NCBI GenBank assembly: GCA_017881265.1
Contig: JADGRA010000005.1
Span: forward strand, 1 to 64,000
Origin: Myxococcaceae bacterium
Lineage (GTDB): Bacteria > Myxococcota > Myxococcia > Myxococcales > Myxococcaceae
Direction: 5' to 3'
Length of the DNA stretch: 64,000 nt
The position numbers and the translations under genes were made by a program. The notes under the pieces were generated by a model. The model ran no database searches, was not told the origin of the DNA, and was given only the letters and a program-made list of their open reading frames with translations. Positions 311 through 39,971 of the stretch are shown piece after piece (positions within the stretch are counted from its first letter, which is position 1; every line of letters starts with the position of its first letter).

Positions 311-1183
311 ATGATCCCTGCAGCCTTCGACTACCACGCCCCCACCAGCCTCTCCGAGGCGGTGGCGTTGCTCTCCAAGCATGGCGATACCGCCAAGGTG
401 CTCTCCGGGGGCCAGAGCCTGCTACCGCTGCTCAAGCTCCGGCTCGGCCAGGCCGGCCACCTGATCGACATCGGACGCATCCCCGGCCTCGAGTACATCA
501 AGGAGGAGGGCGGGATGCTGCGCATCGGCGGCCGGACCCGTGAGTCGGCGCTCGAACGCTCGGAGGTGGTGCGTACCCGCTATCCGATCCTCCTCGACAC
601 CGCGCAGGTGATCGCCGACCCGCTCGTCCGCAACATGGCCACCGTGGGCGGCAACCTGGCCCACGGGGACCCGGGCAACGACCATCCCGCCACCATGCTC
701 GTCCTCGGGGCCCAGGTGGTCGCCACCGGGCCGAAGGCCGAGCGGGTGATCCCCATTGACGGCTTCTTCGTCGGCTTGTTCACCACCGCGCTCCAGCCGG
801 ACGAGATCGTCACCGAGATCCGTATCCCGGCGCCGCCAGCGCGCAGCGGCGGGGCGTACGTGAAGTTCGAGCGCAAGGTGGGCGACTACGCTACCGCAGC
901 GGCCGCGGCCTTCGTCACCCTCGGCGCGTCGGGCCTGGTGGAGCGGGCCGGCATCGCCCTCACCAACGCCGGGCCGAAACCGGTCCGTTCCACCGCGGCG
1001 GAGAAGCTGCTCACCGGAAGGAGACCGGACGCCGCCGCTCTGGGAGAGGCGGCCCGGGCAGCCGGGCAAAGCGCCACTCCGAGCGCCGACCGGCGCGGCG
1101 CGGCCGACTACAAGAAGGAGATGGCAGGCGTGCTGGCACTGCGCGCGCTCACCAAGGCGGTTCAACGCGCGGGAGGTCGCTGA
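311..1183 (+). CDS. coxM: CO dehydrogenase medium (FAD-binding) subunit
   Basis: [45 protein letters not shown] and [19 protein letters not shown] gaggagg upstream of ATG at 311. Confidence 0.9.
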
Positions 1184-1185
1184 CC

Positions 1186-1664
1186 ATGGCCATGCACACC
1201 ATCAAGCTGACGGTGAACGGGGAGCCGCACGAGGCCACGGTCGAATCCCGCCTCCTCCTGGTCCACCTCCTGCGTGAGAACCTGCGCCTCACCGGGACGC
1301 ACATCGGCTGCGACACCACCCACTGCGGGGCGTGCACCATCCTCTTCGACGGCCAGCCGGTGAAGTCGTGCACCGTGCTCGCGGTGCAGGCGGACGGCCG
1401 CCAGCTGATCACGGTGGAGGGCCTGGAGAAGGACAACAAGCTGAGCGCCATCCAGGACGGCTTCTACCAGGAGCACGGGCTGCAGTGCGGGTACTGCACC
1501 CCCGGGATGATGATCACCGGCACCGCACTGCTCGAGCGCAACAATTCCCCGAGCGAGCTGGAGATCCGGGAAGCCATCTCTGGAAACCTCTGCCGCTGCA
1601 CCGGCTACGTGAACATCGTCAAGGCCATCCAGCATGCCGCCCGGGCGACGAAGCAGGAGACGCC

Positions 1665-1668
<4 letters not shown>
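1186..1668 (+). CDS. coxS: CO dehydrogenase small (2Fe-2S) subunit
   Basis: [15 protein letters not shown] and [13 protein letters not shown]...[16 protein letters not shown] double [2Fe-2S] motifs. Confidence 0.93.
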
Positions 1669-4031
<2,363 letters not shown>

Positions 4032-37471: not shown

Positions 37472-38329
37472 TTAGCGCAGGCTGTCGAGCCAGGCGGTGG
37501 TGCGCTGGACCGCCTCCGTGAAGGACGGGGCGACGAAGATGACGTCCTGGTAGACGGTCGGGTCGTAGGGCCGGGCCGCCATGTGTTCAAAGTTGAGCGG
37601 GACCAACTGTGCTTCCCGGCTGAAGCGCTCCAGCTCGCCGAAGGACGACAGGAGCCCGGCCCCGTAGGCCTTCAGCTTTCCGTCCTCGTAGGCGGCGCCG
37701 AATTCCAGGGTGTACCAGTACACGCGCTCAATCTGCTTCAGCACATCCTCGGACACGCGCTCGGCGGCACGGCCGAAGGCCCGGTTGATTTCGGCGAAGC
37801 CCGGGTCGGCCAGCGTGGCTGCGTGGCCCACCATTTCGTGCACCACGTCGGGCTCGGGCGTGTAGAGCGGGACGGTGTGGTGACGGATGTACTGGGTGGA
37901 GAGGAACTGGTCGGACTTCAGGTTACCGAGAAACGCCCGGGACGCCACCAGCCCGGCCACCGGCACCATGGTGAAGCCGGTCTTGGGGACGAGCTTGACG
38001 TTCACCTCGCGCAGCTGGGGGATGTGCGTGCGCGGGAAGGCGAAGTGCGCCGAGCAGTAGCGGTATTCGCGAGAGCCGAAGCGGTCGTGCAGCGGAGCCA
38101 GGTGCTGCCACACCGTCTCCCAGACGCCATGTTCCACGGCGCTGTACTCCACCTCCGGCATCGGGTCTCCCACCCGCCAGCGCAGCGCCCGCTGCGCGAT
38201 GGCGTTCCGCCGCAGCCGGTACACCGGGTCCCGGAAGCCGGGGTGGTTCTGGTCGAGCTCGACCAAATCCTCCTCTCCGGTGTGTGGCCCGGAGGCTTTC
38301 GTGGCAGGGGGAGTGGGGTCGGCAGTCAT
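37472..38329 (-). CDS. phhA: Phenylalanine 4-monooxygenase
   Basis: STQYIRHHTVPLYTPEPDVVHEMVGHAATLADPGFAEINRAFG; VYWYTLEFGAAYEDGKLKAYGAGLLSSFGEL. Confidence 0.92.
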   Translation of the reverse strand: MTADPTPPATKASGPHTGEEDLVELDQNHPGFRDPVYRLRRNAIAQRALRWRVGDPMPEVEYSAVEHGVWETVWQHLAPLHDRFGSREYRYCSAHFAFPRTHIPQLREVNVKLVPKTGFTMVPVAGLVASRAFLGNLKSDQFLSTQYIRHHTVPLYTPEPDVVHEMVGHAATLADPGFAEINRAFGRAAERVSEDVLKQIERVYWYTLEFGAAYEDGKLKAYGAGLLSSFGELERFSREAQLVPLNFEHMAARPYDPTVYQDVIFVAPSFTEAVQRTTAWLDSLR

Positions 38330-38456: not shown

Positions 38457-39971
38457 ATGCTACTGCTGGCCCTCACGGTGCCCCCGCCACCACCCGAGGA
38501 AGTCTGCGCCTCGCCCATTGGCCGCGCCCTGGTGCGCATCCTTCTGGCCTCTGTTGGTGCGCTGCCCGCTGGCACGCGGGACGCGCTGGCGCGGACGGTG
38601 GGCCGAGTCATTTATGCCCTGGGCATCCGCCGGCAGCTGACGTTGGAGCAGCTGGGCTGGGCCTTCCCCGGCTGGAGCGCGGAGGAACGTCGCCGCGTCG
38701 CCCGCCGGACGTATGCGCACATGGCCACCGCGGCGCTGGACGCGGCGCTCTCCCAGAAGGTGTCCGCCGATGCCTTGGCCGCCGCCGTGCTGCGCGAGGA
38801 AAGCCTGGCCATCGAGCGCGCCCTCGCCAGGGGCAAGGGCGTGCTCCTCGCCTCGGCGCATTTCGGCAACTGGGAGCTTCTCGGCGAGGGCCTGGCGCGC
38901 CAGGGCGTGCCCCTGCACGCGGTGGTCCGGCCGCTCAAGGGGGCCTTCAACGCGGAGGTGGTGGCGGGACGGGTGCGCGCGGGCATGCGCCTCATCTCCC
39001 CGCGCAACGCGCTGCGCGGGGCGCTGGCGGAGCTGCGCCGCAACCAGGCGGTGGCAGTCCTTTTCGACCAGGCCATCGGCGGAAAGCACGCCCTCTTCGT
39101 CCCCTTCTTCGGGCGTCCGGCGGCGACGACGCCGCTGCTCAGCATGGCGGCCATGCTGTCCGGTGCCCCGGTGCTGGTGGTGCTGGCCCGCCGGGTGGGC
39201 GAGGCGCTGCACGTCCAGGTCGAGGGCCCCTTTCCGGTGCCGTCCACCGGGGACCGCCAGCGCGACCTCTGGACGCACACCGCCACCCTCACCGAGGTGC
39301 TGGAGCGCCAAATCCGCGCGGCCCCGGACCAGTGGCTGTGGCTGCACCGGCGCTGGAAGCTGCCCGCGCCGCCGGCCGAGACGCTTCGCCTGGAGTTGCT
39401 GGCGCTCGCCGCGGATGACGAGCATGTGCGGCGGCTGCTGGCCGCGGACGGGCGCCTCTTCGACGGGTACGCCCCCGAGATGGAGGCCGTCCACCGCCGC
39501 AACGGGGCTCGCCTGGCCGAGCTGGTGGAGGCCCACGGCTGGCCGGGGCGGTCGCTGGCCGGAGAGGACGGTGCCGAGGCCGCCTGGCGCATCGTCCAGC
39601 ACGCCATTGGAGAGCCTGCCCTGCAGCGGCGTTGCCTGCCGCTGCTCGAGGCGGCTGCCGCTGCGGGCGAAGTGCCGGCGCTGCAGCCCGCCATGCTAGC
39701 GGACCGCATCCGCTACTTCGAGGGGCGCCCGCAGCGCTACGGCACCACCGTCGGCTGGGACGCCGACGGACGGCTGAGCCCGGGTCCCCTGGAGGCGCCG
39801 GAGGACGTCGACGTGCGCCGGGCGGCCCTCGGCCTGCCTCCGCTGGCCGCTTTCCTGGAGCCGACTTCCGAAGCGGACACAGGCGACCTCCCGGTGCGTC
39901 GCCCGGCCGACCCGGCCAAGCACCATGCCGACTTCGAGGCGTGGGCGCACCGGGTGGGCTGGCGCATGTGA
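38457..39971 (+). CDS. LpxL/HtrB-like lysophospholipid acyltransferase fused to C-terminal DUF6624-like domain
   Basis: ASAHFGNWELLGEGLARQG, FDQAIGGKHALFVPFFGRPA, QWLWLHRRWK, then IVQHAIGEPALQRRCLPLLEAAAAAGEVPALQPAMLADRIRYFEGRPQRYGTTVGWDADG in the same uninterrupted frame. Confidence 0.8.
   Translation: MLLLALTVPPPPPEEVCASPIGRALVRILLASVGALPAGTRDALARTVGRVIYALGIRRQLTLEQLGWAFPGWSAEERRRVARRTYAHMATAALDAALSQKVSADALAAAVLREESLAIERALARGKGVLLASAHFGNWELLGEGLARQGVPLHAVVRPLKGAFNAEVVAGRVRAGMRLISPRNALRGALAELRRNQAVAVLFDQAIGGKHALFVPFFGRPAATTPLLSMAAMLSGAPVLVVLARRVGEALHVQVEGPFPVPSTGDRQRDLWTHTATLTEVLERQIRAAPDQWLWLHRRWKLPAPPAETLRLELLALAADDEHVRRLLAADGRLFDGYAPEMEAVHRRNGARLAELVEAHGWPGRSLAGEDGAEAAWRIVQHAIGEPALQRRCLPLLEAAAAAGEVPALQPAMLADRIRYFEGRPQRYGTTVGWDADGRLSPGPLEAPEDVDVRRAALGLPPLAAFLEPTSEADTGDLPVRRPADPAKHHADFEAWAHRVGWRM

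Follow-up and report, generated by a model that had tools for sequence, protein, structure and literature searches.

A Lip_A_acyltrans domain joined in frame to a DUF6624 domain in a Myxococcaceae draft genome

Lipid A acyltransferases such as LpxL/HtrB and LpxM/MsbB belong to the Lip_A_acyltrans family, for which a solved LpxM structure (5kn7) is available as a reference. DUF6624 is a domain without known function; according to the portion of PMC13097080 available to us, it co-occurs often with the graspetide groups 18, 20, 23 and 42. The DUF6624 proteins considered there share the Pfam family by name with the protein analyzed in this work, but they lie near graspetide synthetases, and in that portion no fusion to an acyltransferase is described. 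A search of the literature on myxobacterial lipid A acyltransferases and on LpxL fusions gave nothing relevant. Here we describe a gene in which both domains are encoded; it is located in a stretch of 64,000 nucleotides (the window) of a Myxococcaceae draft genome composed of 81 contigs. The coordinates of this gene, its parts and the other loci mentioned are given in Table 1.

Table 1. Positions of the fusion gene, its domains and motifs, its neighbours, and related loci of other genomes
Feature	Residues	Position	Strand	Basis
Fusion gene, acyltransferase + DUF6624	504 aa	38457..39971	+	Uninterrupted ORF, two Pfam domains
Lip_A_acyltrans domain, PF03279	25-301	38529..39359	+	Pfam E=1e-47; aligns with 5kn7
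HX4E catalytic motif HFGNWE	135-140	38859..38876	+	Orthologue conservation; opposite HFGTWE of 5kn7
FGRPA motif	218-222	39108..39122	+	Opposite FGVPLA stretch of 5kn7
Joint LPAPPAET	302-309	39360..39383	+	Orthologous acyltransferases end here
DUF6624 domain, PF20329	310-467	39384..39857	+	Pfam E=4.6e-16, whole protein
C-terminal extension ending FEAWAHRVGWRM		39858..39968	+	Alignment with close DUF6624 clade; predicted helix
Biopterin-dependent aromatic amino acid hydroxylase, divergent from fusion gene		37472..38329	-	PF00351 E=2e-77; synteny
Hypothetical protein, 55 bases downstream of fusion gene	316 aa	40027..40977	+	ORF
TPR-DUF6624 predicted lipoprotein		L032:1045-2016
TPR-DUF6624 predicted lipoprotein		L059:1051-2016
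TPR-DUF6624 predicted lipoprotein		L033:1471-2430	-
TPR-DUF6624 predicted lipoprotein		L096:1072-2040
DUF6624 followed by pqiA, pqiB-like and pqiC-like genes		L062 (G006:C356) 515-3923

The reading frame of the gene is open throughout, as a sequence-only reading of the window had proposed, and the two domains named by that reading were both recovered far over the curated Pfam cut-offs. The match to PF03279 reached 163.2 bits against a cut-off of 22.3 and covers positions 18-294 of the 295 in the profile; PF20329 scored 59 bits with the whole protein and 61.8 bits (E=7.3e-17, profile positions 4-161 of 173) with the C-terminal part alone, against a cut-off of 27. The concern that the C-terminal region might not match DUF6624 is thereby removed, and the beginning of this domain, expected near 39,385, falls one base away. 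The motifs HFGNWE and FGRPA were found as predicted, and LWLHRRWK closes the acyltransferase. Scans of the C-terminal part against Pfam, NCBIfam and PHROGs detected no further families. Third-position GC ranges from 0.78 to 0.97 along the ORF, is at least 0.83 from residue 31 onwards, and does not drop over the joint. The unbroken frame is in itself weak evidence for a fusion, given that in this GC-rich DNA the remaining two forward frames are nearly free of stops (1 and 3 in 1.5 kb). The deciding evidence, which we consider strong, is that two complete family homologies are placed in one frame on either side of a joint of eight residues. The product of the gene has, then, two domains in a single frame and the catalytic motif of the first; that it is a real two-domain protein originated by an end-to-end gene fusion, whose halves work independently, is in our judgement quite probable.

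The position of the joint agrees with the limits of both families. The homology to acyltransferases stops at residues 301-309, and in some orthologue loci the match ends at 302-312; the orthologous enzymes of relatives (43-54% identity) show only short tails after the conserved LWLHRRWK and do not carry DUF6624. Homology to DUF6624 sets in at residues 307-315; the stand-alone DUF6624 proteins, for their part, begin at the equivalent of residues 303-315, the start codon of the closest ones lying just ahead of the residue that comes after the joint. Since the orthologues end and the stand-alone proteins begin at the joint, the fusion corresponds to two ordinary complete proteins placed end to end. 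The joint itself contains neither an ATG nor a GTG in frame that could serve as the start of a separate DUF6624; further downstream, the first in-frame candidates are TTG (residue 314) and GTG (residue 324), which both fall inside the first helix.

A second complete acyltransferase-DUF6624 fusion was not found in 96 Myxococcaceae genomes, nor in the genomes of the phylum Myxococcota (195), of Alphaproteobacteria (385), of Gammaproteobacteria (369) and of Acidobacteriota (396), ~1,340 in these four groups; the genomes were samples of each group, and the larger searches scored the best 3-4 candidates per genome. This result, together with the available portion of PMC13097080, is in agreement with the sequence-only reading, which knew of no described fusion of this kind. 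Two members of a sister genus bear on the conservation of the fusion. In one of them (G026), the genes for a thioredoxin, a hypothetical protein, EF-G, an aromatic amino acid hydroxylase and the acyltransferase are ordered as in the window, and the contig ends within the syntenic acyltransferase, at residue 267; a stop codon appears a few codons before the contig end, where the sequence is least reliable. In the other (G006), the contig bearing the syntenic block stops ~0.75 kb ahead of the expected start of the acyltransferase, and a DUF6624 that is 62-64% identical to that of the window, C-terminal extension included, is encoded on a contig that begins at residue 360. The contigs of both genomes thus fall short of the joint, which is spanned by the window genome only; from the genes that these contigs do contain, it is plausible that the fusion is conserved in the sister genus.

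These data also bear on the possibility that an assembly or sequencing error joined two adjacent genes, whether through a single-base indel at the joint or through a chimeric contig. The draft state of the genome and the lack of a second genome covering the joint speak for it; in addition, two GTG codons of frame 2, at 39332 and 39338, could start a separate DUF6624 if a single base were wrong, and frame 2 runs into a stop soon after the joint. Against it, the indel would have to be confined to the ~25-45 bases that separate the conserved blocks, and a chimera of unrelated pieces is made less likely by the closest DUF6624 of the family, which is encoded in G006, a congener of G026 with its syntenic acyltransferase. 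We therefore regard an error as improbable, and the frameshift restricted to one strain, which the sequence-only reading had named as grounds for rejecting the fusion, as unlikely, with the qualification that a single genome covers the joint.

The acyltransferase half resembles the members of the Lip_A_acyltrans family in its complete domain, in its HX4E motif, whose His and Glu are kept in 29/29 orthologues, and in its alignment with 5kn7, which extends along residues 44-302. It differs from them in that the gene is located away from the lpt genes, in its extra C-terminal domain, and in its scores: with TIGR02207 (LpxL/LpxP) it reaches 114.7 bits, far below the NCBIfam equivalog cut-off of 297.8, and it is also far under the equivalog cut-off for LpxM. 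Despite the missed TIGR02207 cut-off, it is possible that the fused enzyme works in an LpxL-like manner. The window genome has another LpxL-type gene, which adjoins lptC and lptA and is likelier than the fused copy to be the housekeeping LpxL; given this lpt-linked gene, the fused enzyme is an additional acyltransferase.

In the DUF6624 half, the invariant columns of the family alignment (GW, GA-AA, D, R, YGT) are all present. This part (39360-39968) was modelled confidently, with a mean pLDDT of 92.6, as a compact helical domain with a small beta hairpin. Foldseek comparison of the model with the PDB gave no significant match (best E 0.97), a comparison with viral models gave nothing significant, and a profile built from 24 DUF6624s found no match among PDB sequences; judging from the model, the fold looks like one that is unrecorded among the solved structures of the PDB copy searched. 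The model of the full-length fusion had a pLDDT of 63.8, which is too weak for reading domain contacts. Beyond the Pfam match, a C-terminal helix ending in FEAWAxxVGWR is common to most of the close DUF6624 clade, and is possibly a marker of a subfamily.

The nearest homologues of this half are stand-alone proteins from Ferrovibrio, Hyphomonadaceae, Caulobacterales, Paramagnetospirillum and Acidobacteriota; they are 42-53% identical to it along the whole domain (45-53% for the nearest, from Alphaproteobacteria and Acidobacteriota), and most of them share the C-terminal extension. In contrast to the fused copy, they are separate proteins that begin at the domain and carry YGTQ where the fusion protein has YGTT (Q to T). 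The earlier view that DUF6624 is usually a stand-alone protein holds for these homologues but not within Myxococcaceae, where most of the copies examined form the C-terminal end of proteins that are predicted to be lipoproteins and whose N-terminal part is weakly TPR-like; in this bacterial family DUF6624 is thus already a module of multi-domain proteins. Like the fusion protein, these lipoproteins are larger proteins that end in DUF6624, although they differ from it in their apparent lipobox signal peptide, in their TPR-like N-terminus, and in their placement on a separate branch in a tree of 60 DUF6624s. In that tree the sequence of the window pairs with that of G006 as its sister (99/97), and the two are nested in a clade (99/92) whose other members come mostly from Proteobacteria and Acidobacteriota. 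The simplest reading of this topology is that DUF6624 may have been acquired horizontally and fused afterwards; it is also possible that the fused domain is an old paralogue.

According to the end-to-end fusion that we favour, a stand-alone DUF6624 gene would have been acquired or duplicated 3' of the acyltransferase gene, and both genes would have become joined once the stop codon of the first and the start codon of the second were lost. The N-terminal half probably still uses the His135-Glu140 pair to pass on the acyl chain of an acyl carrier, and the acceptor would be a lipid of the lipid A type, or another membrane lipid, at the inner membrane. The C-terminal half probably forms a helical domain that is self-contained and cytosolic, is held at the membrane through the fusion, and may bind or act on a small-molecule or peptide ligand of its own, or else tune the acyltransferase. 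The two halves would be independent; as the orthologous acyltransferases lack DUF6624, this domain is not required for acyl transfer as such.

The gene neighbourhoods were inspected for indications of a function. Beside the stand-alone relatives of DUF6624 no recurring lipid context was found, and the neighbours were varied, as seen by reading their sequences rather than by scanning them for families. Downstream of the DUF6624 gene of G006 come pqiA, a gene with an MlaD domain (pqiB-like) and a gene for an ABC_trans_aux lipoprotein (pqiC-like); PqiA had no match in the window genome. It could be considered that DUF6624 serves the acyltransferase by modifying, delivering or sensing something (a substrate, partner or regulator), so that the link with a lipid or envelope pathway is real. 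The gene fusion as such, the lipid-transport-type pqi genes of G006, and the lipoprotein-like character of several of the DUF6624 proteins found in Myxococcaceae and Actinomycetota are in favour of this functional coupling, which nevertheless seems to us rather unlikely: the fusion is complete in one genome, this genome has no PqiA match, the genes beside the stand-alone relatives are unrelated, and the orthologous acyltransferases do without the domain. Given the varied, non-lipid neighbourhoods and the lack of a PqiA match in the window genome, the link of DUF6624 with lipid or envelope biology that the sequence-only reading had put forward comes down to one fusion, and we do not maintain it. 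A more elaborate version, to which we give little credence, is that the fusion is kept in a small Myxococcaceae lineage (the genera of the window and of G006/G026) and that DUF6624 has an unrecorded fold and serves as an enzyme or as a ligand-binding domain, working on what a second LpxL-type acyltransferase makes or uses, to yield a modified outer-membrane lipid. Finally, DUF6624 could belong to the pathways of graspetides, a kind of peptide natural product, as a partner domain or as a tailoring enzyme, and have been recruited here to a membrane enzyme, an idea that draws on the co-occurrence reported in PMC13097080 and that we find very hard to credit, since the DUF6624 of the window falls in a clade of stand-alone genes with varied neighbourhoods and an unsystematic look at the immediate neighbours of the fusion gene noticed no graspetide synthetase.

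The acyltransferase-DUF6624 protein is a new domain architecture and not a new kind of system. Its value is limited by being complete in one draft genome and by the relatives' orthologous enzymes, which lack DUF6624; within these limits, the fact that DUF6624 is fused to an enzyme whose chemistry is known provides one testable hypothesis for this domain, and a membrane-tethered protein combined with lipid profiling offers a handle on its role.

Regarding the genes that flank the fusion gene, the divergently oriented aromatic amino acid hydroxylase has a relative in G026, where it shares the block with the acyltransferase. The downstream hypothetical protein matched no Pfam or NCBIfam family, and the syntenic loci that were examined contained no match to it; its gene may be co-transcribed with the fusion gene.
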